From: Rathayibacter sp. VKM Ac-2754
GTDB lineage: Bacteria; Actinomycetota; Actinomycetes; Actinomycetales; Microbacteriaceae
Assembly (NCBI RefSeq): GCF_009807095.1
Contig: NZ_WUCC01000004.1
Coordinates: 186,001 to 250,000 of the forward strand
Length of the DNA stretch: 64,000 bases
Direction: 5' to 3'
Shown here piece by piece: positions 1,304-39,542 of the stretch. The translations under genes and the position numbers were made by a program. Under the pieces are notes generated by a model. It was not told the DNA's origin and ran no database searches. It was given only the letters and a program-made list of their open reading frames with translations. Every line of letters starts with the position of its first letter. The stretch's first letter is position 1.

Positions 1304-1792
1304 TCAGGGCACCGGGTCGGAGTGCGGCGCGTCCGAGTCCCAGATCGTCTGCAGCGGGTCCTCGGTGTCGTCGCCGACGAGGTGCACGCCCCGGCGGCGC
1401 GCGGCCTCGGCGGCGGTGATCTCGCCCAGGTGCTCGGAGGCGCGGATCGCGGCGGACGCGCCTCCGTCGCGGGTGAGGAACGGGTCGGAGGGCGTCGCGA
1501 AGCGGAAGCCGTCGCGCGGATCGAACGGGTGCGCGACGACGCCCGTGACATCGGGTGACGAGGCGAGCAGAGCCATCGTGACGCGATCGGCGGCGCGCCA
1601 GGCGGTGACGGAGGAGCGGCGCTCGACGCCTATCGATCCGTGCGGAGTCGACACGGTCAGCCGCTCGATCTCGGGGAGGAGGCGGAGGATCCTCACGGCC
1701 GCCTCGAGCGTCTCGGGCAGCACCTGCTCGAACGCCCCCGAGAAGACGGGGACCCATTCCTCCACCGGGAGGCGACTGCGCCACTGATCCAT
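1304..1792 (-). CDS. Conserved-looking protein of unknown function (162 aa)
   Basis: I do not recognise this 162-residue protein. The reading frame is well filled and has protein-like composition (MDQWRSRLPVEEWVPVFSGA at the start), with no signal peptide and no membrane segment, so it is probably cytoplasmic. Residues of roughly 70-110 contain VTGVVAHPFDPRDGFRFATPSD, and the C-terminus is acidic (DDTEDPLQTIWDSD). It stands alone, between a hairpin cluster and the intergenic region upstream of the reverse transcriptase. A role cannot be assigned. Confidence 0.65.
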   Translation of the reverse strand: MDQWRSRLPVEEWVPVFSGAFEQVLPETLEAAVRILRLLPEIERLTVSTPHGSIGVERRSSVTAWRAADRVTMALLASSPDVTGVVAHPFDPRDGFRFATPSDPFLTRDGGASAAIRASEHLGEITAAEAARRRGVHLVGDDTEDPLQTIWDSDAPHSDPVP

Positions 1793-2039
1793 CGTGGGTC
1801 CTCTTCTCGGGAGGCTCGCTCATCGGGGCGCCGGCACCGGGGTCAAGGGTGGGTCAGTGGGAGTGACTGCTGCCAGATTACCGCTCGTGCCCGGCGGATG
1901 GGGGGTCTGCGTCGACCGATTCCCGAACGTCGATCGGCGATGACCGCTCCTCCGGGCGACCTGTCGAGAAGTGCGGGCGAAGAGCTGCGCGGAGCGCGGG
2001 CGGTCGCCTGCGGCGTGATGCCTGGTCGGTCTGCGTGCC

Positions 2040-2120
2040 CCGGGGTGACCCCGGAGAGGACGGTGCGGCTCGCGCCCCGTCCGCCTCGCCCGGAGGGGCG
2101 ATCGGCCTCAGCCTAGGCTG
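2040..2120 (+). other. Structured GC-rich region upstream of the reverse transcriptase
   Basis: The 357-base gap between 1793 and 2149 has no convincing gene but contains several hairpins in its last third: CCGGGG/CCCCGG (2040-2045 with 2049-2054), GGACGG/CCGTCC (2058-2063 with 2077-2082) and a perfect 12-base palindrome CAGCCTAGGCTG (2109-2120). The palindrome includes a possible -10 box TAGGCT. Retron RTs usually have their msr-msd RNA just upstream on the same strand, so this is where such an RNA would be expected, but I could not identify clear a1/a2 flanking repeats. Confidence 0.35.
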
Positions 2121-2149: not shown

Positions 2150-3454
2150 GTGCGGGGTCGGGACGTGCTCGTCGAGACGCTCGCGCACGCGTTCCTCGGG
2201 GCGGAGTGGACGCGCGACTCGCTGCGCGCCGCCGCCGCCGACTCCCTCGGCTTTCGCCGCCGCTGGCTCGGGCCGCTGATCACCGGGGTGCTCGTCGCGT
2301 TCCCGCATCCGCCGGTCGACGCGCCCCGCGAGCTCGCCCGCTGCATCGCCGGCCTGCTGCCGGAGCGCGCGCAGCCGGTGGTCGTCCACCTCGCGCCGGT
2401 CGCGGCGCGGGCGGTCGCGGGAGCCTCTCCGGTGCCGCTGATCGACGGGCGGAACGACCTCGCGCGGCTCCTCGGGATCGCTCCGGCGCAGCTCGACGGC
2501 TTCGCCGACCTCGGCGGCTGGAACCGGCGCGCCCCCGACGGCGCTCTGCAGCACTACGACCACGTCTGGCGGGTTCGTCCGGGGCGCGCGCCGCGGCTGC
2601 TGGAGGTGCCGAGGTCGCGGCTGAAGGCGGTGCAGCGCAGCGTGCTCGACGAGATCGTCGGTCTGGCGCCCGTGCACCCGGCGGCCCACGGCTTCGTGCC
2701 CGGGCGCAGCGCCGTCAGCGGGGCGCAGGTGCACGCGGGCTCGGCGATGGTCGTGACCCTCGATCTGCAGCGCTTCTTCGCGCAGGTGACGGCGCCGCGG
2801 ATCTTCGGGCTGCTCCGCGGCGAGGGGATGACGGAGGCGGTCGCGTACGCGCTCACCGGGCTGTGCACGCACGCGGTGCCGATCGCGGTGCTGCGGAGGA
2901 TGCCCGGCGGCGGAGACGTCGACGAGCGCGCGGCGCTGCGCCGGTCGCTGACGCTGCCGCACCTCCCGCAGGGCGCGCCGACGTCGCCGGCGCTGGCGAA
3001 CCTCGCGCTCCGGCGGCTCGACGCGCGGCTCACCGGCTACGCCGAGGCCGCGGGCGCCCGCTACACGCGCTACGCCGACGACCTCGCGTTCAGCGGTGGG
3101 GAGCGCTTCGCGCGGCGGGCGGAGGCGTTCGCCCGCGGCGCCGAGCGGATCGTCGCCGACTCGGGCTACGCGGTGAACCCGCGCAAGACGCGCCTCCGCT
3201 CGGCGTCGGTGCGGCAGAGCGTCACTGGAGTCGTGGTCAACGCGCGCCCGAACGTGCGGCGCGCCGACGTCGACCGGCTGCACGCGATCCTGCACAACTG
3301 CGTCGTGCACGGGCCGGCGGGCCAGAACCGCGCGGGCGTGCCCGACTTCGGCGCGCACCTGCTCGGGCGGATCGCCTGGGTGGCGTCGGTGAACCCGGCG
3401 CGGGGCGCGACGCTGCGGGCGCTGTTCGACGCGGTCGACTGGTCGCGGGGGTGA
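2150..3454 (+). CDS. Retron-type reverse transcriptase
   Basis: This 434-residue protein is an RNA-directed DNA polymerase. The start is GTG at 2150 after GGGGAGGG. The first 130 residues are an extension without a motif I know. The RT core follows: LDLQRFF with the first catalytic Asp at about 205, LPQGAPTSPALANL (RT domain 4, about 271-285), YADD at 308-311 with both catalytic Asp, NPRKTRL (about 344-350) and VTGVVVN at about 358. GAQVHAG just before LDLQRFF corresponds to the retron NAXXH element with N changed to G, and VTG is the retron region-Y triplet. The C-terminus (LHAILHN...LLGRIAWVASVNP) fits the retron thumb. No maturase, endonuclease or integrase domain is visible, and no effector gene is adjacent. 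Confidence 0.88.
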   Translation: MRGRDVLVETLAHAFLGAEWTRDSLRAAAADSLGFRRRWLGPLITGVLVAFPHPPVDAPRELARCIAGLLPERAQPVVVHLAPVAARAVAGASPVPLIDGRNDLARLLGIAPAQLDGFADLGGWNRRAPDGALQHYDHVWRVRPGRAPRLLEVPRSRLKAVQRSVLDEIVGLAPVHPAAHGFVPGRSAVSGAQVHAGSAMVVTLDLQRFFAQVTAPRIFGLLRGEGMTEAVAYALTGLCTHAVPIAVLRRMPGGGDVDERAALRRSLTLPHLPQGAPTSPALANLALRRLDARLTGYAEAAGARYTRYADDLAFSGGERFARRAEAFARGAERIVADSGYAVNPRKTRLRSASVRQSVTGVVVNARPNVRRADVDRLHAILHNCVVHGPAGQNRAGVPDFGAHLLGRIAWVASVNPARGATLRALFDAVDWSRG

Positions 3455-3465
3455 GCGGAGTAGTC

Positions 3466-3592
3466 ATGCTGGTCGAGTAGCCCCGCAGGGGCGTATCGAG
3501 ACCTACCAGCTTCAGCAGACCAGGCTTCAGCCCTGCCCTTCTGACGGACGTGGATCTCGATACGCCCGCTGCGCGGGCTACTCGATCAGCAT
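3466..3592. repeat. Inverted-repeat pair of the GTCGAGTAGCC family
   Basis: Two opposed copies of a dispersed element (GGTCGAGTAGCC...GGCGTATCGAGACC and its complement) bracket about 40 unrelated bases, giving a 127-base inverted structure that begins CATGCTGGTCGAGTAG and ends CTACTCGATCAGCATG. Copies also occur near 26466, 38752, 40755-41008 and 47541-48047. It follows the RT stop codon by about 12 bases. Confidence 0.8.
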
Positions 3593-5579: not shown

Positions 5580-5816
5580 GCACGTTCGGCTCGTGGAATC
5601 GGCTCGGGCTCGCGGAATCCGTCGATTCCTGCGAGCCCGACGCGGTTTCACGAGCCGAGGGTCGGCCGGAGGTGCCTTCGGCTCGTGGAATCCGGTTCGG
5701 CTCGTGGGATCCGGTTCGGCTCGTGGGATCCGGTTCGGCTCGTCGGATCCGGCCTTTTCCGCGAGCCGAACGTGGTTCTGCGAGCCGAACGTGGTCTCGC
5801 GAGCCGGAGGTGCTGC
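5580..5816. repeat. Array of TTCGGCTCG/CGAGCCGAA repeats
   Basis: About 235 bases are built from repeated TTCGGCTCGTGGGATCCGG-type units followed by inverted CGAGCCGAACGTGG units, so the single strand can fold into long hairpins. Related arrays occur at 55343-55562 and 58088-58180. The gap 5572-6091 contains only these repeats and the hairpin at 5866-5935; no gene is seen in it. Confidence 0.75.
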
Positions 5817-5865
5817 GGAGGCGCGCGGGAGGGGCATCGCGGCGCGGGTTCGAGGGCGTTCGGCT

Positions 5866-7313: not shown

Positions 7314-7486
7314 GGGGACGTGATGTCTCGTTCTGAGAAGGCGACGTCTCGCGCCATTAGTATCTGACTGCGCTGGCCGGATTCGGAGCGGATCCACAGG
7401 TTGGGGCCGCGAACCAGGGAGCGCGGGTCTGCGTGCACCGGGGCCACTTCTGGCTCGGGCCTGTGCCCTCGGACGAAAGACCAACG

Positions 7487-10400
7487 ATGTTCGCTCTCTG
7501 GAGCCGCTCCACCCGACTCGCCGCGACCGCTCTCACCGCGCTCGTCCTCGTCACCAGCGTCGGCCTCGCGCCGAGCGCGATGGCGGAGACGGTGCAGGCA
7601 TCGGCGCTCGCGCCGAACGAGACGCTCGTGCTCACTCCGAGCTACGGCACGGAGGAGTCGGAGGAGGGGGCGCTGCCCGGCTCCTACTTCCAGAACGACA
7701 TGCAGGTCCAGGTGAGGACCGAGGGAGGAGCGTACGTCGAGGGTGCGCCCGTGACCTTCGAGGTGGTCAAGGGTGGAGCGGTCTTCGAGTACCCGGAGTC
7801 GGCCGCCGGCCCCGCGTCCTCCTCCTCGACGGTCTCGACGGTCACCAACGCGCAGGGCGAGGCGTCGCCCTACCTGTACACCGGCACCGGGCCGCGACTG
7901 AGGCTCGCCGACCCCGACTACTACGGGCCGATCGAGATCCAGGTGTCGACGCCCCAGGCCGAGCCGTACGTCTTCACGAACTTCCGAGCGACGCGGGTGG
8001 CACGCCTGGAGCGCATCGGCGACCCGTTCATCAGGCTCGCCAATCCCGGTGTACCGCAGCGGATCCCGCTGCAGCAGAAAGTGGTCGGCGCTGATGGTGC
8101 GGGGCTCGCTGGAGTCGAGGTGGTCTTCGCGCTCGAGTGGGACTCGGGGTACTTCGTCGGTAGCGGGACGTCGCTCACAGCCACGACCGATGAAGAGGGG
8201 ATCGCGACGACGATCCCGAGCGACCAACCGGACTCGGACACGACCGGCTGGTTCGTCAGCGATAGCGAGGGGCTCGAGGACTCGATTATCGACGTCCGGG
8301 CGGAAGGCGTCGGCGGCTTCGGGACCGTCATCCAGTTCGACCGCGTGACCGCCCTGACAAGCGTGACGGGTGATCGGCAGTACGCGCAGCCCGGCGACAC
8401 TTACAGCGAGATCACCGTTCGAGCGGCGAACAGCTCCGGAGTCTCTCTGCAGGGCCGTAGAGCCTACTTCCAGGTCTTCGGTCCGGCTACCCTCGTCTGC
8501 GGTGAGCGGTCGTCGGGCTATGACTCCGTCACCGACGCGAGCGGCCTGGCGACCCTCCCCGAAGACTGTGTGCGGGTGGATCCCGGTGCTACAGCTGCCG
8601 ATGGTGTCGTCACGATTCGCGCATCCGCGGGATCTGCGCGCACGGAACTGACGATGCTGATCGGCGATCGCGTGCGCGCGTGGAAGATCGTGGCGGTCAG
8701 TGGCGGCGGACAGAGCACGGCTGTCGGGACCGACTTCGCTGCTCCAATGGTCGTCCGAGCGACTGACGAGCGAGGGATCGCCGCCAGCTTCGCTCCCCTC
8801 ACCTTCCGGGTGGCTCCCGCCGGCTCGGCCTCCTTCGTCGTGCAGCCCGGTGAGGACGCGAACACCGTCCGGGTCGTCGCGGATCAGAACGGCATGGCGA
8901 CAAGCCCTCTGCTGCGAGCGGGCCCGGAGAGCGGCCCGGCAACCGTCTTCGTCAGCAGCGAGGACTCCCTCGAGGACCTCTACTACGACTTCTGGATCAC
9001 CGGGGGAACGGCCCGGATCGAGGTGCACTCGCCTGCGGCGAACTCCTCTGTACTGCCTGGCGGGTACTGGCTCAACAGCTCGGTGGGTGTCTTCGATGCG
9101 GATGCCAACGCGGTGGAGAACGAGACGGTGACCTTCACCGTCGAGAGCGGTCCCATCGGCTTCACCCCATCTGGCGGGGACGATGGACAAGGCCGGACGG
9201 TGACGTCGACGACAGGTCCAGGAGGCTCCGCACGCGCGGGCGTCCTCTACGCGAGCCCGACTCGGTCGGGACCGGCCGTACTGCTCGTCGAGACCGCCTC
9301 CGGGGTGTCGACACGCGTGCCGGTGACGGTCGAGGCGTTCGGGCCACCGGTGCAGCTCATCGATCGAGGCGGTTCGGGATGGAGCGTCCCGACCGGCGGT
9401 CAGCCGCCGATGCTCCAGGGACGTGCATCGGCCGCAGACGGCGGGCCGGCCGGCCTGGCTCCGATCACGGTGAGGATCGACGGAGGCACGGGTACGACGT
9501 TCGCCGACGGTTCCACCGAGACGACCGCGACCACGGACATCCGCGGCGACTTCTCCGTCGCCCTCGGAGCCGCCGGGCCTGTACCGGGCGACGTGACAGT
9601 GACGGCGTCGAGCCCGGCAGCTTCCGACCTCGTCTGGACGGGACGTGTGACCGGCGTCGCCCAGGGCCTCGCCGTCGCCGGGGGTGACCAGCGGGTCCAC
9701 CCCGACGAGCCTCTCGCTCCGCTCAGCGTGCGCGTGACCGATTCCGAAGGGGAGCCGGTCGCCGGCCAGGTGGTGACGTTCACCTACCCCGGCGTGCCCA
9801 CCTACTATTCCTACCCCTGCACCGCCAACCCCGAGACGTCGTCGACGCGGACCGGACCGGACGGGATCGCGACCCTCTGCGGCCTCCGCGCCCCGGCGGG
9901 CCGTGACGCGGTCGGCCGACTCCTGATCGCCGCCTCCCTCCCCGGCTCGGGTCAGGTCGACTTCGACGTCGAGGTCATCCCCTACCCCGCCCCCGACGCA
10001 GTCGTCGACGACGGCGGTGGGGAGCGCTCGGCGTCGGCCGGCTCCGAGTTCACCGGAAGCCCGAGCGTCCGAGCGACCGCCTCCGGAGAGAGCGCCGGTT
10101 ACGCCGACGTGCGCTTCCGCATCGACGGCGGCACGGGTTCCGGCTTCCGGACGGCGGCCGGAGTCGAGACCGAGGTCGTCGTGCGCTCGACGTCCCAGGG
10201 ATACGCGACCGCGCCGGTGATCGTCGCGGGCACGACCCCCGGCGCCTTCACACTCACTGCGACGTCGGAGGAGTCCCCGGGGATCGCGCCGATCACCTGG
10301 GCGTACACGGTCACCGGGCTGGCGACCGCCATCAGAATCGTCGAGGGAGGTGATCAGAAGGTCTACGTCGGCGGTGCCACCGCGCCCATCGTCGTGCAGG

Positions 10401-13400
10401 CGCTCGACGACGAGGGCCGGCCGGCCGTCGGCCAGCTCGTCACGTTCACGCTCTCGGACGCAAGACCGCACGTCTTCTCGGGCGGCGATCGCCGGTCGGA
10501 CAGGATCACCGACGCCGAGGGCCTCGCGCGCCTCGAAGCGTCGGCGATCTCGGTGGGCGACGTCCCCGGCCCGTTCACCGTGGGAGTCGAGATCGACGGT
10601 GTCGAGCAGGGATCGATCGCCCTCGAAGCGCTCGCCTACCCGATCGCCGACCGAATCGTGGCCAGTGGCGGCGGCGGGCAGACCGCCGCTCCGGGCACCG
10701 CCTTCGGTTCACCACTGACCGCCCTCGTCTCGAACGCGGCGTCGGCGACCGTCGTGCCGAAGGTCCCGGTCACGTACACCGTCACTGCGGGTGACGCGTA
10801 CTTCGTCGACGCTGCGGGGCAGCACGTCCCCTCGGCCGTCGTCCCCTCCTCCACCACCGGAGTCGCCATCTCCCCTCGGCTCTTCGCCGGGAGCCAGGGC
10901 GGATCCGTCCTCGTCTCGGCCACCGCCCCGGACGCGTCCGCCGCCGCCCTCTTCGACATGACCGTCTCGAGCACCGCCACCAGGCTCGCCCTCGTCTCCG
11001 GGGACGATCAACGGGTCCGGGTCGGCTCGCTGTTCGCGCCTCTCACGGTCCGCGTGACGGCGGCCGACGGCTCGCCCGTCGCGAACCAGTCGGTGCGATT
11101 CACGTCCAGCTCGATCGGAGTCGCCGCCTTCTCTGGTCAGACCCGCAGCTACGCCTACACCGATGCCGAGGGCATCGCCTCGGTGCAGCCCGGCGCCGGT
11201 ACGACCGCCGGTTCGGCGACGGTCACCGCGAGCACGGGGTCGCTGGTTCCCGTCCAGTTCCGGATGAGCACCACGGCGCTTCCCGTGGCCACCGCACTGG
11301 TCGACCCGATCGGTGACGGCCAGATCGCGAATCCGGGTCAGACCTTCGGTGCACCGCTCGCCGTCAGCGCCGTCGACGGCGAGGGTGTCGGTGCACCCGA
11401 GACCCGCGTCACGTTCGCGATCACCGGAGATGCCGCGTTCAGCACGGGGGGAACCTCGGCGGTCGTGGTCGCGAACGGTCTCGGGAGGGCGGTCTCGCCG
11501 TCGATCGTGGCGGGTGCGTCGACCGGTGCGGTGACGGTGACGGCCACTGCACCCGGAGTCGCCGCCGTGCCGTTCGCACTGAGGGTCTCGCCGCCCAACC
11601 GCGCGCCCGAGATCACCTTCAGCACCGACGCGAGCATCGTCGAGATCGACGCGCCGGTGGCGATGGTCCTCGGGGGGTCCGATCCCGACGGCGACGCGCT
11701 CCGGTTCCGCTTCGACTTCGGGGACGGCACCGCTGAGCGCGCAGGAGCCTGGCCGGCATCGGGAGTCACCCACCGCTACTCCGAGGCAGGCACCTATCTG
11801 CTCCGGGCGATCGTCAGCGACGGCACGACCGAGACGGTCCGGACCACTCGCGTCAGCGTGATCCTCCCCGAGCCTCTCGTCGCCGTCGCGGGCGACGACC
11901 GATTGGTCGTCGCGGGAGCCGATGTGCGCTTCACCGGCGCGGGATCGCGACCCGCGGGACTGATCAGGACGGCGACCTGGGACTTCGGAGACGGATCCTC
12001 GGCGACCGGACTGGTCGCCGACCACCGCTACTCCGCGGCGGGGACCTACACCGTGCGCCTCACCGTCGCGAACGGCACCGAGACCGCGACGTCGACCCTC
12101 GTCGTGTCGGTTACGCCGGCCCCCGTCGTCCCGGGGCTGACCGTGACCGTGCGGACCGGCGGAGCTCTGCTCAGCGGCGCGACGGTCAGCACCACCCTGC
12201 CGAGCGGTCAGCGCATCTCCTCAGTCAGCAACGGCGCCGGCGTCGCGACCCTCGACGGGATGCCCGATGGCTCGTCGAGCGTCTTCGTCACCGCACCGGG
12301 CTACCTCCCGCTGGCGGCGACGGCCGTGCTGAGAGACGGCAGTGGCTCCCTCGAGGCGAACCTCGCCAGCGGTGAGGTCGGAGCGACGGCGCTCGAGACG
12401 CGTCAGCTGACCTACGACGAGATCGTCGACCGGGGCATCGACCCGGCCGCACCCGAGAACACCAGCGTCTTCGAGGCCGAGGTGCACCTGGCTGTGGCCG
12501 GTGAGGCGGTCGATCTGCCCGTCGCTCTGACGTGGAACCCCTCGGGAGTGGTCGCGGTGAGCGAGACGGGTGGCGGCGGCGGTGGCGGGGGGACCTCCGA
12601 CTGCGGCTGCGTCGTGCAGGGCGGTTACAGCTACACGCCGACCGTCGTCCACGCCGAGGGCCGACCGGCCGTGCAGTGGATGGTCGTCCCCATCGGCGGC
12701 AGCTACCTCAAGGAGTTCTTCGAGGCGCGGATGATCGTGCAGAACCTCGCTGCGGAGCCCTTCCGCTTCACCGACGGCCTCGCCTCGCTCAGCCTGCCGG
12801 CCGGCATCAGTCTCGCTCCGACGGCTGCACAGCAGTCGCTCGCAGTGGCGGTGCCCGAGGTTCCCGCCGGTGGCAGCCAGACGGTCTCGTGGACGCTGCG
12901 CGGAGACGTCGAGGGAGAGTATCCGCTGACGGCGGACTACACCGCGGTCATGCAGCCGACAGGTGATCCGATCCGCCTGGTGGCGGCGACGCAGGCACCG
13001 CTGAAGGTCTGGGGCGGGTCGGCGCTGTCGATGACCGTGAGCGTGGACCCGACGACGAACGCGTACGACCCCTTCCGAGTGACCGTGAAGCTGAAGAACG
13101 TGACGCCCGAACGGGCCGGCACGATCGTCTACAACCCCGCGGTCCAGGTGCGACAGGGCTCGAACATGCTCCTGGCTCCCGACACCGAGTACACGAGGTC
13201 GGTTCCCTCGCTGCGACCCGGCGAATCCCTCACCGCGGAGTTCGTCTTCTACACGCTGGTCGGCGGCAGGACGCTCATCGACGACTCGTCGTTCGTCGGG
13301 CTCTTCTCGACCTCGACCGGAGGCGCCGTGGAGGTCGACAGGGCGCCGCTCGTGCTCGAGCCGAGACCGACGGAGGTCCTCGATGTCGAATCGGAGTGGG

Positions 13401-16400
13401 TCGACATCGACGAGAGCACCATGGCGCTCGCCGTGGCGTGGGAGGTCGTTCCGGATGCGGTCGGGTACTCGGTCTGGGGACGTGACGACGTGCTCCCCGG
13501 ATCGAGCGACTGGGAGCGGATCACCGAGACTCTCAACCCGGACCGTACCGACATGATCCTCCTGCCGGAGAGGAGCGAGCAGCTCCATCCCTTCTACGCG
13601 GTCGTGGCGCAGTACGCGGACGGCACCACACGGGTGCTGCACAGCCTCGTGCCGAAGACCGTCACTGCTCCGGAGGAGTCCGAGGGTCCGGTCGGCATCG
13701 ACATCGGGGTGACGAGCTCGAGTGAGGCACCGGCGTGCGTCGACGTGCTCCACATCGCGGCCGCCGGTTCCGGCGAGGTCGGCACCATCGGGCGGCCCCT
13801 GGGGGTCCTGAATCTCGAGCTGCACGACGTGGTCGCGCCGCATCGTGACTTCGCCGCGGTGTACCTCGACTACCCGGCGAGGAAGGTGCCGCTCCTCCTC
13901 AACGGCGACGTCGACTTCACCGGCTACTACGACAGCATCGAGACCGGCGTCGCGAACATGACGACCTTCCTCCGCAGCCGGATGGAGTCGTGCAAGAACG
14001 AGACGTACATCCTGTCCGGATACTCCCAGGGCGCCGTCGTGATGAGCCGTGTGCTCGACGACCAGCCGGATCTCTCGTCCGTGGGGGCCACCGGACGCTC
14101 GCGCATCGAAGGGCTCTACCTGGTCGCGAACCCGAGCCAGAACGAGGACATCGGCGGCCGGATGGAGGGCAGCGGTTCCTGGACGACGGGAGTGAGCGCG
14201 CTGGTCTGGAACGAGACGATCCCCTCGACCATCGAGGACCGGACGACGTCGCTCTGCGCCTACCCCGATGTGGTCTGCGGCCTCGTCGACATCGCGGACA
14301 TCAGCCTCCGCGCAGGCAAGGTCTTCGCGCCGCTCGGCGTAGCGGTGGCGTCCTTGCAGCTCGTCCAGGGCTACGACAACCACGTGAACTACTGGAAGCG
14401 CGACGCGCCCACGCTTCGCCGCTACGCGCAGGAGGCCGGGTGGCGCGCCCTCGGCGTGCCGGTCCTCACGAGCCCGGAGCTCGCGACCGACGTCGCTGGG
14501 GACCAGAGGTTCATCGACGCGACTCCCTCCAACTCGATCAAGACGGTCTTCTCGCCGACGGGCGAGAGAGTGCAGCCGCAGTGGCGGATCGAGAGCAGTG
14601 GGAGCCCGGCGGTCTCGCTGTCGCCGGGCGGCCTGCTCTCGGGAACGCTCGCTGGGGGAACCTATGCTTTCGGGCTCTCGGTGTCCGGAGCCAGGCCCGA
14701 CCAGAAGCGCACGGTGGGCCTCACGATCAAGGCCGGCTGGGCTGCGGAGGTGGCCGAGGTGCGGCCCGTCTCGACGGCTCCGACGGGATACGTGCTGAAG
14801 CCTCTCGCCGTGCAGGTTCTGGACGCGAGCGGCCGACCGGTCATCGGGGCCGAGGTGATCTTCCGCGTCGACGGACCCGCTGCGTTCGCGGGTGGCTCGC
14901 AGCAGCAGACGGTGCGGACGGATCAGCAGGGGTACGCCGTCTCGACGACGCCTGTCCCGACAGGCGCTGCGGGCGCACTGCGCACCAGCGCCGAGGTGTC
15001 GGGGCAGTCCTCGGTCGATCTCGGAGACCAGGTCGTGCCCGCCATGGACGGACTCCCCGCAGGAGTCACCGCCGTTCAGACTCCGATCGTCGTGAACGGC
15101 AAGGTCGTCCTGCAGGTCGTCGTCGCGAACGGCTCGCCCGAGACGGTGGCCGTCACGGTCGCCACTCGCTTCGGCACCAAGAAGATCCCGGCCCTCGTCG
15201 CAGGGGAGAGCGGGACGCTCCTCTTCTCGACCGGCCTCAAGAAGATCGCCGCCGGCGAGATGACGATCACCGCGGCGACTCCGACCGTCTCGGGCAGTCG
15301 CACGCTCCGTTACGACGCCTGGGATCCGCAGACGGTGCTGGTGCTGACCGATTCGAGCGCGTCCGCGACAGCGCTGGCCGGTGGGGCCCTGCCGCCCTAC
15401 ACGGTGAGGCTGATGCGGGCGGACGGCACAGCGGTGGTCGGAGCCGAGGTCGCATTCACGGTGACCGGAGCGGCGGCCTTCGGCAGCGGAGCGAGCGCCT
15501 CGCCGACGAATCGTGCCGTCACGGACGCCTCCGGCTTCGCGGTGTCGTCCACGCCGCTCGTCGCCGGCACGAGTGCGGGCGCGGTCACTGCGACGGCGGC
15601 CGCCGCCGGGGCTCCGGTCCTCGCCCTGATCGCGCGGTCGGTGACGGCCCCCGACGTGGCGCTCACTTCTCGTGCCGACGTCTACGTGGGTGCTGCCGGC
15701 GGTCGGGTGGTGCTCACCGTCGAGGCGGTGAACACCTCGACCGTCCCCGTCGACATGACACTCTCGACCCGGTTCGGCTCGAAGAAGGTCCTGGGCGTGC
15801 AGCCGGGTGCGACGGCCTCGGCGGAGTTCCCGACCGGACTTGCCGCGGTGGGCGCGGGTACTGCGACTGTCCGTCTCCAGGCCGGCGCCGCGGTGAACGA
15901 GGTCAGGGCGTCGCATCCCGCGGCAGGGCCTGGGAAGCCGGCCGTACTCTCCCCGGGCGGAACGGCGCAGACGGTGTGGACGGGTGATCCGCTCGCGCGG
16001 CCGACGGTGAAGGTCCTCGACACGACGGGCGTCCCCGTCGCGGGGGTGTCCGTGACGTTCGAGATCGCCGGTCCGGCCGCCTTCGCGGGCGGTTCGACCG
16101 CCGTCGCGGTATCGGACAGCGCGGGCTGGGCGGTGGCGCCTCCGGCCACCGCGGCGTCGACGCCGGGAACGGCGAGCATCACTGCGCGCGCCTCCGGTCC
16201 GCGTCCGGCTGCCCTCCCCGCGGTCACCGTGGCGTCACGGCCGGCGCCGACCGAGCTGGTGACAGGGTCCGCCGCCACGAGGACGGAGGCCGGACGCGTC
16301 GTGCTCGACGTGGTGGTGACCAACACCTTCAGCGCGCCCGTCGATGTGGCGATCACGAGCCGCTACGGCAAGAAGTCGATCGTCGCCCTCGCGCCGGGTG

Positions 16401-16519
16401 CGACCGCCACGACGACCATCAAGACGGGGCTGGCCTCCGTGGCCGCCGGCACGGTGAGCGTCGTCGCGACGGCCGGAGCCTCCCAGCAGACCCTCGTCCT
16501 GCCCTACGCCGCCCGATGA
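7487..16519 (+). CDS. Giant secreted Ig-like/PKD protein with an embedded cutinase-like hydrolase
   Basis: The product is about 3010 residues. The ATG at 7487 gives a Sec signal peptide (hydrophobic run ALTALVLVTSVGLAPSAMA); an upstream in-frame start at 7433 would bury it. Residues about 40-1370 are around a dozen Big_1/invasin-like Ig modules. Two PKD domains follow (FDFGDG and WDFGDG, about 1372-1543), then a carboxypeptidase-regulatory-like module, a Gly6 linker, and a fibronectin-like segment (about 1964-2058). Residues about 2083-2316 form an alpha/beta hydrolase of cutinase type: GYSQGAVV with Ser about 2180, CAYPDVVC with Asp about 2261, and NHVNYW with His about 2299. More Ig-like modules end the protein. 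No LPXTG, S-layer or transmembrane anchor is visible. It is likely a surface or released adhesin with esterase activity. Confidence 0.88.
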   Translation: MFALWSRSTRLAATALTALVLVTSVGLAPSAMAETVQASALAPNETLVLTPSYGTEESEEGALPGSYFQNDMQVQVRTEGGAYVEGAPVTFEVVKGGAVFEYPESAAGPASSSSTVSTVTNAQGEASPYLYTGTGPRLRLADPDYYGPIEIQVSTPQAEPYVFTNFRATRVARLERIGDPFIRLANPGVPQRIPLQQKVVGADGAGLAGVEVVFALEWDSGYFVGSGTSLTATTDEEGIATTIPSDQPDSDTTGWFVSDSEGLEDSIIDVRAEGVGGFGTVIQFDRVTALTSVTGDRQYAQPGDTYSEITVRAANSSGVSLQGRRAYFQVFGPATLVCGERSSGYDSVTDASGLATLPEDCVRVDPGATAADGVVTIRASAGSARTELTMLIGDRVRAWKIVAVSGGGQSTAVGTDFAAPMVVRATDERGIAASFAPLTFRVAPAGSASFVVQPGEDANTVRVVADQNGMATSPLLRAGPESGPATVFVSSEDSLEDLYYDFWITGGTARIEVHSPAANSSVLPGGYWLNSSVGVFDADANAVENETVTFTVESGPIGFTPSGGDDGQGRTVTSTTGPGGSARAGVLYASPTRSGPAVLLVETASGVSTRVPVTVEAFGPPVQLIDRGGSGWSVPTGGQPPMLQGRASAADGGPAGLAPITVRIDGGTGTTFADGSTETTATTDIRGDFSVALGAAGPVPGDVTVTASSPAASDLVWTGRVTGVAQGLAVAGGDQRVHPDEPLAPLSVRVTDSEGEPVAGQVVTFTYPGVPTYYSYPCTANPETSSTRTGPDGIATLCGLRAPAGRDAVGRLLIAASLPGSGQVDFDVEVIPYPAPDAVVDDGGGERSASAGSEFTGSPSVRATASGESAGYADVRFRIDGGTGSGFRTAAGVETEVVVRSTSQGYATAPVIVAGTTPGAFTLTATSEESPGIAPITWAYTVTGLATAIRIVEGGDQKVYVGGATAPIVVQALDDEGRPAVGQLVTFTLSDARPHVFSGGDRRSDRITDAEGLARLEASAISVGDVPGPFTVGVEIDGVEQGSIALEALAYPIADRIVASGGGGQTAAPGTAFGSPLTALVSNAASATVVPKVPVTYTVTAGDAYFVDAAGQHVPSAVVPSSTTGVAISPRLFAGSQGGSVLVSATAPDASAAALFDMTVSSTATRLALVSGDDQRVRVGSLFAPLTVRVTAADGSPVANQSVRFTSSSIGVAAFSGQTRSYAYTDAEGIASVQPGAGTTAGSATVTASTGSLVPVQFRMSTTALPVATALVDPIGDGQIANPGQTFGAPLAVSAVDGEGVGAPETRVTFAITGDAAFSTGGTSAVVVANGLGRAVSPSIVAGASTGAVTVTATAPGVAAVPFALRVSPPNRAPEITFSTDASIVEIDAPVAMVLGGSDPDGDALRFRFDFGDGTAERAGAWPASGVTHRYSEAGTYLLRAIVSDGTTETVRTTRVSVILPEPLVAVAGDDRLVVAGADVRFTGAGSRPAGLIRTATWDFGDGSSATGLVADHRYSAAGTYTVRLTVANGTETATSTLVVSVTPAPVVPGLTVTVRTGGALLSGATVSTTLPSGQRISSVSNGAGVATLDGMPDGSSSVFVTAPGYLPLAATAVLRDGSGSLEANLASGEVGATALETRQLTYDEIVDRGIDPAAPENTSVFEAEVHLAVAGEAVDLPVALTWNPSGVVAVSETGGGGGGGGTSDCGCVVQGGYSYTPTVVHAEGRPAVQWMVVPIGGSYLKEFFEARMIVQNLAAEPFRFTDGLASLSLPAGISLAPTAAQQSLAVAVPEVPAGGSQTVSWTLRGDVEGEYPLTADYTAVMQPTGDPIRLVAATQAPLKVWGGSALSMTVSVDPTTNAYDPFRVTVKLKNVTPERAGTIVYNPAVQVRQGSNMLLAPDTEYTRSVPSLRPGESLTAEFVFYTLVGGRTLIDDSSFVGLFSTSTGGAVEVDRAPLVLEPRPTEVLDVESEWVDIDESTMALAVAWEVVPDAVGYSVWGRDDVLPGSSDWERITETLNPDRTDMILLPERSEQLHPFYAVVAQYADGTTRVLHSLVPKTVTAPEESEGPVGIDIGVTSSSEAPACVDVLHIAAAGSGEVGTIGRPLGVLNLELHDVVAPHRDFAAVYLDYPARKVPLLLNGDVDFTGYYDSIETGVANMTTFLRSRMESCKNETYILSGYSQGAVVMSRVLDDQPDLSSVGATGRSRIEGLYLVANPSQNEDIGGRMEGSGSWTTGVSALVWNETIPSTIEDRTTSLCAYPDVVCGLVDIADISLRAGKVFAPLGVAVASLQLVQGYDNHVNYWKRDAPTLRRYAQEAGWRALGVPVLTSPELATDVAGDQRFIDATPSNSIKTVFSPTGERVQPQWRIESSGSPAVSLSPGGLLSGTLAGGTYAFGLSVSGARPDQKRTVGLTIKAGWAAEVAEVRPVSTAPTGYVLKPLAVQVLDASGRPVIGAEVIFRVDGPAAFAGGSQQQTVRTDQQGYAVSTTPVPTGAAGALRTSAEVSGQSSVDLGDQVVPAMDGLPAGVTAVQTPIVVNGKVVLQVVVANGSPETVAVTVATRFGTKKIPALVAGESGTLLFSTGLKKIAAGEMTITAATPTVSGSRTLRYDAWDPQTVLVLTDSSASATALAGGALPPYTVRLMRADGTAVVGAEVAFTVTGAAAFGSGASASPTNRAVTDASGFAVSSTPLVAGTSAGAVTATAAAAGAPVLALIARSVTAPDVALTSRADVYVGAAGGRVVLTVEAVNTSTVPVDMTLSTRFGSKKVLGVQPGATASAEFPTGLAAVGAGTATVRLQAGAAVNEVRASHPAAGPGKPAVLSPGGTAQTVWTGDPLARPTVKVLDTTGVPVAGVSVTFEIAGPAAFAGGSTAVAVSDSAGWAVAPPATAASTPGTASITARASGPRPAALPAVTVASRPAPTELVTGSAATRTEAGRVVLDVVVTNTFSAPVDVAITSRYGKKSIVALAPGATATTTIKTGLASVAAGTVSVVATAGASQQTLVLPYAAR

Positions 16520-36473: not shown

Positions 36474-37988
36474 TCAGCTGCAGGCTGTCAGCTTCGCGAC
36501 TCCCTCCGAGAGCGTGGTCGGGCCGCCGAGCAGGACGACCTTCGAGGCGCCGAGGCGCTCGATGTCGTCGAGCACGGGCTGGGGCACGCAGGTGGGCTGC
36601 ACCGTGTAGAGCGGGCTCTTGGTGAAGCCGGCGCTGGTGGCTCCGGCGAGGGCGTCGGGGAAGTTCTCGCCGGTGGCGAGGTAGACCGTCGACGCGGACG
36701 GGAACGCGGCGCGGTTGAGCTGCACCGACGTGTCGTAGCGGTCGATGCCTCCGATGCGGGTCGCGGTCACGGGGAGCGACGCGGCGATGCCGTCGCTGAC
36801 CGAGAGGTTGCTGCCGGCGATCGTCAGCTTCTTGACGCCGAGACCCGAGATGAGGCCGTTCGTGGTGGCGTCGGCGGTACCGAGGCCGCCGTTCACCAGG
36901 AGGACGGGCGCCCTGACGGATCCGGCCGCGGCGGCGGCGGCGAGAGCGTCGGGGAACTTCTCACCGGTGGCGAGCCACGCCTGAGCGGAGCCCTTCGGGA
37001 AGGCGGCCTCGACGAGCTTCGCGGCGGTGTCGTAGCGGTCGACGCCTCCGATGCGCCGGATGTCACCGTTCTTCGTGTACTGGGCGAGGTCGTTCTTGAG
37101 GCTCTCGCTGATGCTCAGCTCCGAACCGACGACGATGATCTTGGTCGGCTTGAGGCGGATCAGCTCGTCGCGGACCGGCTGCGACATGGAGTCGCGGTCG
37201 ACCAGCAGCAGCGGTCCGCTCTGCTTCGCGGCGGCGGGCCCCGCGCTCAGCGCGTCGGGGAAGTTGGCGCCGGTGGCGACGAAGACGACGGGCACGTTCG
37301 TGCCGAACGTCGCCGCCGAGAGCTTCGCGGCGGTGTCCTGACGGTCGACTCCGGCGATGCGCGAGACGGTCACGGGCCCCGCGGTGGCGGTCGGGGTCGG
37401 GGTCGGCGTGGGCGTGGCCGTCGGAGTCGCGGTGGGCGTGGGCGTCGCGGTGGGTGTCGGAGTCGCGGTGGGTGTGGGCGTCGCGGTGGGCGTGGGCGTC
37501 GCGGTCGGGCTGACGGTCGGCGTCGGCGTGGACGTCGGAGTCGCGGTGGGGGTCGACGTGGGAGTCGGCGTGGAGGTCTCCGTCGGAGTCGGAGTCGGAG
37601 TCGGAGTGGGCGCCTCGTCGCACGACGCGTCCGAGACCGTGTACGCGTAACCGACCACCGGCGGGTCGCCGACGACGACCTCGAGCTCGTCACCGGTCTT
37701 GACGGGCACCGGGTCGAAGGCGAAGTTCCCGTCGGTGTCGGTCGGGTTCGCCTGCTCGCCGAGGACGCCGTTGACGACGAGGCCGAGGATCACCGGGTCG
37801 TCGAGGTCGTTGCCGCCCTCGACGGTCCCGGAGACGACCGCGGTGGTCGGGCTGCCGTCGACACAGGTGACATCGGTCGAGGCGAAGTCCTCGGCGGCGG
37901 CGGCGCTGAGCACAGGAGTGAGTCCCGCGGTGCCGGCGATGAGCGCGGCGGCGAGCAGGGCGAGCCGTGAGCGGCGCGGGGCCTTCAC
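36474..37988 (-). CDS. Cell-wall-binding-repeat-2 protein, paralogue
   Basis: The 504-residue product (GTG at 37988) has the same layout as its neighbour: signal ([20 protein letters not shown]), a divergent N-terminal beta-rich domain with Cys ([14 protein letters not shown]), a longer TPT/TAT linker of about 90 residues, and three CWB2 modules ([45 protein letters not shown]). The wall-binding part is much more conserved between the two than the N-terminal domain, so the N-terminal domain is probably the displayed, changing part. It is secreted and non-covalently wall-bound by inference. Confidence 0.88.
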
Positions 37989-38023
37989 AGCGTCACCGCC
38001 GGAGTGGGGAGCGGGCAGGGGAC

Positions 38024-38070
38024 GTGGAGCGATGACGACATCGTGTCGCTTTCTCGAGAGGGCGGATCGG
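38024..38070 (-). promoter_or_regulatory. Conserved 47-base leader block, copy 2
   Basis: Identical to 36143-36189, 36 bases upstream of the start codon of the second cell-wall-binding gene. A further partial copy of its palindrome (GCGACATCGTGTCTC) lies at 38201-38215, upstream of the promoter. Confidence 0.55.
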
Positions 38071-38165
38071 GCCGTCGGCCTCCTCGTCGGCCGGGGCCGT
38101 CGCTCGCGAGGCGCCACGGTGGGACCGGCATGCCGGGAACAGAGAAGGAAGAGGACGGTGCTCGA

Positions 38166-38194
38166 AAGCTAGTGACCCGCTCCGACCCCGGCAA
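38166..38194 (-). promoter_or_regulatory. Predicted promoter of the second cell-wall-binding gene
   Basis: TTGCCG (38189-38194) and TAGCTT (38166-38171) on the minus strand are 17 bases apart and match the boxes before the paralogue. The leader would be about 170 bases. Confidence 0.55.
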
Positions 38195-38284
38195 CAAGCA
38201 GCGACATCGTGTCTCAACCGTCCAGGGGAGGCGATCGACGCTTCCTCGTGAGAGCGCAGGCGAGTCCCGCTCTTCGGGAAGACG

Positions 38285-38874
38285 TCTCGGGAACCGACGA
38301 GCCGACCGGCGAGCTCGACGAGGCGTCGACGGTCGACGTGCTGGAGGCGCTGCGCGGCATCAACCGCCAGCGCGGGGTGACGACGGTGATCGTCACGCAC
38401 GACGCCGGGGTGTCGGAGCACGTGAGCCGCACGGTGCGGATCCGCGACGGCCGCACCTCGACCGAGACGCTGCGGCGCGTGTCGGAGGGCGACGCGGTGC
38501 ACTCGGCCGAGGAGTTCGCGGTGCTCGACCGCTTCGGGCGGCTCCAGCTGCCGGAGGAGTTCACCGGCGCGCTGGGGCTGCGCGACCGGGTGCGGCTCGG
38601 GCTGGAGGCGGACCACATCCGCGTGCAGTCGGGCGTCGCGGCGCCTGCCGCTGCGGCTCCTCCCGCTCTCCCCGAAGCGGACTCGCCCGGCCCTGCCTCT
38701 CTCCCTGAAGCGGACTCGCCCGAGCTCGCTGAAGCGGTCCCGCCGACCCCTGCTGGTCGAGTAGCCGCCGAAGGCGGCGTATCGAGACCCACCTCCCTAC
38801 GACCCTCCCGTCCCACCCCCGATCCCACCCCGCCCCGCCGCCGCGGCCGCCACTCCCTCGGAGACGACTCGTGA
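38285..38874 (+). pseudogene. Truncated ABC ATPase (N-terminal half missing)
   Basis: From about 38285 the frame reads DEPTGELDEASTVDVLEALR and VTTVIVTHDAGVSEHVSRTV, the Walker B and switch regions of a MacB-like ATPase, then an extra domain (EEFAVLDRFGRLQLPEEFTG) and a long Ala/Pro tail. Walker A, Q-loop and signature are gone; upstream is the promoter region of the cell-wall-binding gene. The tail contains a GTCGAGTAGCC repeat at about 38752-38797. Its stop overlaps the start of the next ATPase gene (GTGA), so it was once the first gene of that operon. Confidence 0.75.
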
Positions 38875-39542
38875 CCCCCGTGCTCGACGCCGTCGACCTG
38901 CACCGCGTCTTCGCCACACCGGCCGGCGACGTCGTCGGCTGCGCGGGAGTCTCGCTCTCGGTCGCCGCGGGCGAGCTCGTGGTGGTGCGCGGCGCCTCCG
39001 GAGCGGGCAAGTCGACGCTGCTCTCGATGCTGGCGACGGTCGACCGGCCGACGAGCGGGCAGGTGCTGATCGACGGTGCCGACGCCGCCGGGCTCGACGA
39101 GCGCCGGCGGGCGGAGCTGCGGCGGAGCGCCCTGGGCATCGTCTTCCAGGACTTCGCACTGCTCGAGGACCTCACCGCGCGCGAGAACGTCGAGCTGCCG
39201 CTGCGCCTCCTCCGCACCGACCCCGCCGAGCGCGACGAGCGGGTGACGGAGGCGCTCGCCGCGGTCGCGCTCGACGAGCAGGGCGACCAGCGGCCCGACC
39301 AGCTCTCGGGCGGGCAGCGTCAGCGGGTCGCGATCGCCCGCGCGCTCGTCGGCCGCCCGCGCCTGCTGATCGCCGACGAGCCGACGGCGCAGCTCGACAG
39401 CGTCACGGCGACGCGCGTGATCGCCCTGCTGGTCGCCTCCGTGCGCGAGGGCCGTCTCGCCGCGGTCGTCGCGACCCACGACCCGGCGTTCGCCGACCGC
39501 GCCGACCGCGTGCTCACGCTGCGCGACGGGCGGGCGCGCTGA
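38871..39542 (+). CDS. ABC transporter ATP-binding protein, LolD/MacB type
   Basis: The 223-residue ATPase (GTG at 38871) has Walker A GASGAGKST, Q-loop LGIVFQDFALLEDL, signature LSGGQRQR, Walker B LLIADEPT and the switch His in VVATHDP. It would normally energise an FtsX-type permease, but no permease gene lies next to it; the partner ATPase upstream is truncated. It may be a leftover or may serve a permease elsewhere. The next gene is on the opposite strand. Confidence 0.88.
   Translation: MTPVLDAVDLHRVFATPAGDVVGCAGVSLSVAAGELVVVRGASGAGKSTLLSMLATVDRPTSGQVLIDGADAAGLDERRRAELRRSALGIVFQDFALLEDLTARENVELPLRLLRTDPAERDERVTEALAAVALDEQGDQRPDQLSGGQRQRVAIARALVGRPRLLIADEPTAQLDSVTATRVIALLVASVREGRLAAVVATHDPAFADRADRVLTLRDGRAR

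Follow-up and report, generated by a model that had tools for sequence, protein, structure and literature searches.

The window (the whole stretch of 64,000 nucleotides that was analysed) carries a gene for a retron-type reverse transcriptase (RT) at positions 2150-3454 of the plus strand and, just upstream on the opposite strand, a conserved msr-msd-like non-coding RNA of 159 nt (1945-2103, minus strand). The RT gene starts with GTG and encodes 434 aa in an open reading frame. Its assignment is based on the ORF, on matches to Pfam and PADLOC models, on an AlphaFold model, a phylogenetic tree and Foldseek searches; the RNA was recognised by alignments, covariation and a covariance model. The Pfam profile RVT_1 matches the protein with 4.9e-17 and the retron St85 RT model with 2.7e-44, the latter under the cut-off of the model. 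The PADLOC models RT_other (PDLC02949, 2.9e-169) and RT_outgroup (PDLC03740, 7.9e-160) both cover nearly the full length of the protein, and the next PADLOC model, RT_XIII, follows with 1.2e-81 over residues 95-426. The model group_II_RT_mat reaches 52 bits at a cut-off of 300, and the protein does not count as a group II intron RT by this test.

The catalytic motif YADD (residues 308-311, positions 3071-3082, plus strand as for all RT motifs), a QG at residues 274-275 and a VTG at residues 358-360 (3221-3229) are present, just as an earlier note on this DNA had stated. The VTG marks the start of region Y, which according to a 2019 review is the msr-binding part in characterised retrons (PMC6868368). 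In region X the protein reads GAQVH (residues 191-195, 2720-2734) in place of NAXXH. The earlier note had seen this divergence correctly. It is a trait of the whole family: in an alignment of 50 family RTs, the window included, none of the rows has the Asn, and hence none the strict NAXXH, the variants being GA (16 rows), YA (12), FA (7) and others (15). The His of the motif (His195) and YADD are found in all 50 rows. VTG occurs in 17 of them, next to LAG (11), LGG (8), LTG (7) and other kinds (7). As far as the review covers it, 14 out of 16 validated retron RTs have NAXXH, Mx65 and Ec48 being without the Asn (PMC6868368), and an older survey gives the motif for 59% of the retron and retron-like RTs (PMC4244168).

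The RT domain is preceded by an N-terminal extension (about residues 1-97, 2150-2440), which is common to the family and had been described as 130 residues long. The extension is real, its length is rather some 86-97 residues: Ec86 residue 57 aligns with residue 143 of the window RT, and in the predicted structure the extra helical domain, with four helices at residues 3-69, stops near residue 69 and is followed by a loop to about residue 97. Two tryptophans of the extension, W20 and W39, hardly vary in the 50-row alignment. The AlphaFold model of the complete RT has a pLDDT of 94. With the N-terminal domain alone (predicted, pLDDT 82) no PDB match better than E 0.87 was obtained, i.e. no PDB fold could be assigned to it.

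When the upstream regions of the Rathayibacter relatives were aligned, the block directly upstream of the RT turned out to be far more conserved than its flanks, and a profile of this block also picks it up in remoter relatives, where it lies on the other strand. This is the element at 1945-2103, in which pairs covary, at a place where the earlier note could recognise no msr-msd RNA. Read on the minus strand it consists of the arm a1 (2086-2098), a guanosine at 2085, hairpin 1 (2058-2082), hairpin 2 (2038-2056), a linker, hairpin 3 (1973-2011), the sequence ACAGG and the arm a2 (1947-1959). The arms, placed by the 77-row alignment described below and by the window sequence, are inverted repeats of each other and form a closing stem, with 12 of 13 pairs in the window as judged by eye. 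Hairpin 1 is msr-like, with varying sequence and conserved pairing, and the likewise msr-like hairpin 2 shows a near-invariant CCGGGG-nnA-CCCCGG in near relatives; hairpin 3, also drawn by covariation, is msd-like. Complementary 5' and 3' ends (a1/a2) in an adjacent structured RNA, a hallmark of retrons, thus appear to be given, in the window on the strand opposite to the RT. Guanosine 2085, the first base inside a1 and following an A, is the predicted priming base. The 2019 review locates the retron priming guanosine where a1 ends on its inner side; its context is mostly TAGC, with CAGA, CAGC, GAGC and ACGC occurring as well (PMC6868368). An A|G at this end is found in 68 of the 77 aligned members. 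In the window the guanosine would fit a retron by its position, its context CGAGGC being unlike the usual AGC. From the same anatomy the reverse-transcribed DNA is predicted at 1960-2035 (plus strand), its right-hand end being uncertain.

The first RNA alignment comprised 27 members, with rows not fitted to the structure. In this alignment 27 of the 42 pairs have double-sided changes, and 132 double-sided cells were counted against 45.6 in shuffles, none of 500 shuffles being as high; versions of the structure slid along the alignment gave 39-55 cells. The structure was drawn from the same 27 sequences, so this test favours it. RNAalifold alone found only two helices, the closing stem and hairpin 1 being added by hand from single-sequence folds. 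A covariance model, R1, was then run on 89 sources (1.57 Mb), made up of the window, the best 80 of 469 confirmed loci and 8 further loci. At E<=0.005 it matches 77 of the 89, once in each; 27 of these members had been used for training and 50 are additions. In the 77 rows fitted to R1, double-sided changes affect 40 of 42 pairs, and pairing is kept in 94.1% of the cells. Two of the 12 sources without a match (L032, L057) end just before the RT. Among the remaining 10, searched again in a smaller set, seven gave weak matches on the expected side (E 0.0007-0.24), and three (L080, L086, L091) gave none even there. The RNA lies farther from the RT in the loci L053 and L054 than elsewhere. At the Singulisphaera locus L053 an IS605 OrfB/TnpB-like gene (8774-9967) is situated between RNA and RT, and a Myxococcus vastator locus has an RNase P RNA gene (L049:686-1081) at a distance of some 1.5 kb from the RNA.

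The model is specific for this RT family. R1 matches 15 out of 22 further loci, every one of them a member of the family, though at least four of the 15 (L116, L117, L118, L129) repeat places already counted. At the other seven loci (Mx65/Mx162-type and related, St85, Ec67) no match went below E 0.46, and 80 viral contigs with more distant RTs gave nothing at E<=1. Among 20 genomes, the own one included, the RNA is present in all 11 with the RT and in none of the nine without it. Rfam at its gathering threshold reports no retron RNA in the window, nor does Rfam 15 at E<=1 on 14 loci; matches to microRNA models (L010 and Mx162-type loci) were taken as chance hits on long hairpins. The RNA family is therefore without a match in Rfam 15. 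PADLOC is described as having its own msr-msd covariance models (PMC9252829).

The orientation of the RNA reveals a difference between the window lineage and most other members. In 68 of the 77 members (from the sources that include the best 80 of 469 loci) the RNA lies upstream on the RT strand, in nine it is on the opposite strand: the window, L018, L019, L020, L021, L026, L003, L008 and L009, all from Rathayibacter. Searching 13 Rathayibacter genomes with the RNA model, the own one included, gave nine inverted cases, two which are not inverted (G004, G009) and two without the RNA; G014 is inverted as judged by L019. In the inverted relatives with large flanks (L018, L019, L020, L021, L026) a gene for a CDF transporter stands on the same side as in the window, and a Gfo/Idh gene on the other side in L018, L019, L020 and L026 (the contig of L021 ends), interrupted by insertions that differ in length. 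The two non-inverted Rathayibacter species showed no gene of the window's neighbourhood near their RT, and because of this an inversion in situ within the genus can not be demonstrated. The inverted RNA is well conserved; the window shares 133-145 of 159 bases with its eight inverted relatives.

A promoter-like box seems to have moved along with the RNA. Of the 77 members, 52 have a TAnnnT at 12-30 nt from the 5' end of the RNA and 25 have none in that interval; on the 3' side the count is 3-4. In all nine inverted members a TAGGCT is located 11-13 nt 5' of the RNA, and in eight it is part of the 12-bp palindrome CAGCCTAGGCTG (2109-2120), which gives the RT the same box. In the window the two -10-like boxes overlap, one for the RNA (minus strand, 2110-2115) and one for the RT (plus strand, 2114-2119); their promoter role is a prediction. 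In L021 the RT half of the palindrome is altered and the RNA half is intact, and another RT-sense box lies nearer to the RT. A scan of 1793-2200 detected neither a sigma-70 -35/-10 pair nor a terminator consensus. Since the box sits on the RT side together with the RNA, the inversion is easier to explain if promoter and RNA were turned round as one unit than by a recombination between the inverted repeats a1 and a2.

Which strand is read in the inverted lineage has to be weighed. The original-strand TAGGCT is kept in 9/9 members, even in L021 with its broken palindrome, which suggests that the RNA is read away from the RT. The reverse complement could have taken over instead, the functional RNA then being read from the RT-sense strand. 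Some of the strand statistics point in this direction. While the 68 non-inverted rows show 163 G-U against 43 A-C cells, there are 9 G-U and 14 A-C cells in the nine inverted rows, i.e. the G-U excess is gone. The RT-sense strand folds more stably in 9/9 inverted rows, by 13.8 kcal/mol on average, and the original strand folds better in 38 of the 68 non-inverted ones; when the consensus structure is imposed, the original strand comes out ahead in 2/9 inverted against 62/68 non-inverted rows. The nine inverted rows are close kin, so that these statistics reflect few events; even so, the lower folding energy and the lost G-U excess argue for the RT-sense strand. Against the RT-sense strand stand, besides the preserved box, the U-G pair of hairpin 2, kept on the original strand in 8/9, and the rarity of a TAnnnT in the RT sense beyond the RNA: in the 120 nt on its far side only one of the nine (L021 itself) has such a box. 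Moreover, the RT would need to recognise the complementary sequence. We consider a takeover by the reverse complement rather unlikely and regard it as quite probable, judging from these sequence features, that the original (minus) strand is the one read.

The inversion also bears on the nature of the element. Since in 68/77 members it precedes the RT on the RT's own strand, it could be a cis-acting leader of the RT mRNA with a regulatory role and no template for reverse transcription. In the window lineage, however, it is conserved to the degree given above although inverted, so it is no RT leader there, and a closing stem with an A|G just inside is the anatomy of retron RNAs as the review describes it (PMC6868368). 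A mere leader is thus very unlikely in our opinion.

For the phylogenetic analysis a midpoint-rooted tree of 55 RT rows was calculated, without DRT or DGR rows and after three viral rows with doubtful ORFs had been dropped. All 33 family rows form one clade (support 100/99), which joins seven Mx65/Mx162-type and related rows with 87/89, a value under the starred level. The split from the group II intron RTs has 100/100, with a warning of the tree program that the long branches of the group II and St85 rows may attract each other. Foldseek gives a similar picture: the first 18 of the 50 PDB matches listed are retron RT chains, the top match among them being Ec86 (TM 0.80 by target), the first group II intron RT comes after these 18, and DRT2 is 26th. 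By tree placement and structure matches the window RT is a retron RT. The phylogeny which the earlier note had proposed as a check places the RT on the retron side of such a tree, and its outcome that would have spoken against a retron, a position outside the retrons together with no associated RNA, is contradicted by both tree and RNA; the suggestion that this may be a new retron type is thereby strengthened. A DRT/UG-type defence RT with a non-coding RNA is scarcely credible here: DRT2 likewise pairs an RT with a neighbouring ncRNA as described in PMC12039810, and the Drt2 model matches weakly (5.2e-09), but the retron models match far better (the St85 model, though below its cut-off, and those of PADLOC) and retron chains lead the structure matches listed.

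In its own genome (3.97 Mb searched) the RT family is found at a single place. Among the best 80 of 469 confirmed stretches the closest relatives are from Rathayibacter, with 92% identity for strain Leaf185, followed by Leifsonia, Frigoribacterium, Mycetocola, Nocardioides, Myxococcus, Planctomycetes and Proteobacteria, so that judged by record titles the family spans several phyla. From this order of relatives the window is taken to stem from a Rathayibacter. In 198 genomes of the phylum both the RT search at E<=1e-60 and R1 with stricter filters found only the window's own copy; the pair therefore seems to be rare in the phylum at large and frequent in some genera. Three of 14 other Rathayibacter genomes lack the RT. 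In another one (L009/G005) the first 30 residues of the RT are in a different frame, due to a sequencing error or a frameshift. A contig labelled Vibrio cholerae 35D (L025) carries an actinobacterial-like member with 56% identity and probably belongs to a mislabelled or contaminated assembly.

A mobile home of the family, i.e. a phage, viral contig or plasmid, was considered and rejected on the cover and identity of the matches. Eight phage records were found for the RT, none with more than 80% cover; the best identity in viral contigs is 36% (80 kept of 362), where the pattern of hairpin 2 has no match either. The 53 plasmid records include none with more than 80% cover, with 48% as the best identity. 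The nearest of them are mostly large replicons, and two which were opened (L113, L114) carry the RNA. Carriage of the RT-RNA pair by plasmids is rare in the records searched. The 'plasmid 5' of Tsukamurella tyrosinosolvens (L113) has polA and rpsA around the RT and looks chromosomal.

The dN/dS values of the RT, 0.14-0.33 in 21 pairs of seven inverted-lineage genes (Nei-Gojobori), point to purifying selection. That the locus is a decaying remnant without function, as its absence in three of 14 other Rathayibacter genomes and the shifted N-terminus of G005 might suggest, is hardly tenable in view of these values and of RT and RNA being kept together in 11/11 genomes.

Substituted NAXXH, N-terminal extension and myxobacterial members led us at first to suspect that the window family is identical with Mx65. 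At E<=1e-90 the family is present in 13 of 27 Myxococcus genomes, the other RTs in Myxococcus genomes having mostly 39-45% identity to the window RT; G047 and G067 contain only short pieces, with 58% and 51% identity. The Mx65 RT of M. xanthus DSM 16526 is given as FNOH01000027.1 37959-39242 (PMC8934634, Table 2). An ORF on contig 27 of genome G065 spans exactly 37959-39242 when counted by hand from an inner ATG, encodes 427 aa and reads GAAPH. G065 is most likely M. xanthus DSM 16526, because this ORF coincides with the published coordinates. On contig 5 the same genome has an RT of the window family, closely preceded on its own strand by an R1 match (E 1e-08), and on contig 7 another RT, which we infer to be Mx162 from the NALAH motif and the length of its kin. 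Neither the Mx65 locus nor the contig 7 RT gives an R1 match. The identity with Mx65 was therefore rejected, since the published coordinates fall on a separate gene of the same genome where R1 finds nothing, and this family seems to be a third retron of M. xanthus DSM 16526. No report of a third M. xanthus retron was met in the literature on Mx65 and on unclassified or effector-less retrons, of which our coverage is partial.

Regarding a possible partner gene, no defence gene was recognised among four neighbours in the window; two flanking ORFs were compared with Pfam, NCBIfam and PADLOC, and the genes for the CDF transporter and the Gfo/Idh oxidoreductase with Pfam. This agrees with the earlier note, which had found no effector nearby; its term 'orphan' is right as to an adjacent effector gene and wrong in so far as the RT has its own RNA. 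All-against-all clustering of the ORFs around 81 loci (a crude set including shadow frames) gave only genus-level synteny and scattered positions; in the 40 largest clusters no gene keeps its position from genus to genus. Likewise, among 133 neighbour ORFs of 47 loci (at most one upstream and two downstream each, ORFs above 700 aa left out) no Pfam family occurs in more than four and no PADLOC family in more than three. The scattered PADLOC matches were rejected as partners; a Cas12f-like set of them fits the IS605 OrfB of L053. A typed tripartite retron is thus not what we see, as neither an adjacent effector nor a recognised fused effector domain was found.

Further observations concern the surroundings of the RT. 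Divergent from it lies a gene for a 162-aa protein (1304-1792, minus strand), for which Pfam, NCBIfam and PADLOC give nothing significant (DUF7262 comes nearest, at 0.053) and which is also upstream of the RT in four of five large-flank relatives, with 63-71% identity. At 3463-3592, close behind the RT gene, a long inverted repeat, GCTGGTCGAGTAG...GGCGTATCGAGAC and near complement, was noticed by eye; it resembles a dispersed intergenic repeat more than a part of the retron. Short intergenic repeats of the CGGCTCGTGGGATCCGGTT type are visible at 5580-5830, and a very large ORF (7433-16519, 3028 aa) has an N-terminus like that of secreted proteins and, on visual inspection, numerous repeated domains resembling one another.

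As far as can be read from sequence, the locus is a retron in anatomy and ancestry. We are fairly confident that it represents a two-component retron of an untyped family, without adjacent effector, whose RNA and RT, divergent in the window, would meet in trans. In the proposed mechanism the RT would bind the RNA of about 159 nt, probably via the near-invariant hairpin 2, while the a1/a2 stem joins the RNA ends. Guanosine 2085 would prime through its 2'-OH, and the RT would copy the msd hairpin into a single-stranded DNA of about 70-80 nt which keeps its link to the msr RNA. For the majority of the members found, promoter, RNA and RT would be read in one direction; in the window lineage RNA and promoter would be inverted, and RNA and RT, expressed divergently from the palindromic -10, would meet in trans. 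In this scheme it is transcription, priming, the DNA product and the strand read in the inverted lineage that are predicted.

Retrons are now mostly described as defence systems consisting of RT, RNA and a toxic effector, according to PMC12548924. For the window family, phage defence via an unlinked partner or via the RT's own N-terminal domain seems somewhat more likely than a housekeeping role. A more far-reaching idea, which we put forward tentatively and hold to be more doubtful than probable, is that there are widespread stand-alone retrons of RT and RNA with no toxin partner, long at fixed chromosomal sites and working via the N-terminal helical domain or in ordinary physiology, that the RNA was flipped in one lineage with its function kept and hence acts in trans, and that M. 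xanthus has an unnoticed third retron. An RT with a strongly conserved RNA and no adjacent effector would be a clean case for studying the role of msDNA without an adjacent toxin, and the natural inversion is a ready-made test of RNA action in trans. R1 makes the RNA searchable, and the third M. xanthus member, if true, could be tested in a genetically tractable organism.

A retron without neighbouring effector is not new in itself, because it was preceded by Retron-Bth1, described as having no obvious effector and an unclassified RT (PMC12548924), and by the 2019 review, which gives accessory ORFs for about a third of the annotated retrons (PMC6868368). The window case differs from Retron-Bth1 in being a whole family with a shared RNA. 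Ec86 (Retron-Eco1) is the best PDB match to the window RT by sequence and fold, yet it was solved in complex with an effector (title of 7v9x), of which the window RT has none adjacent. The type XIII retron RT is the next best model, but a much weaker one, and the window family has no recurrent partner gene. The nearest RTs in the tree are Mx65 (Retron-Mxa2) and Mx162 (Retron-Mxa1), which likewise have an N-terminal extension, and Mx65 shares the missing Asn of NAXXH as reported in the review (PMC6868368); their RTs are, however, only about 40-45% identical to the window RT, and R1 finds nothing at their loci. Closest of all are RT_other and RT_outgroup of PADLOC, which match the window RT over nearly its whole length, so that the protein family has already been seen among untyped retron-type RTs; these are protein-only models, and the window family adds to them an RNA without counterpart in Rfam 15.
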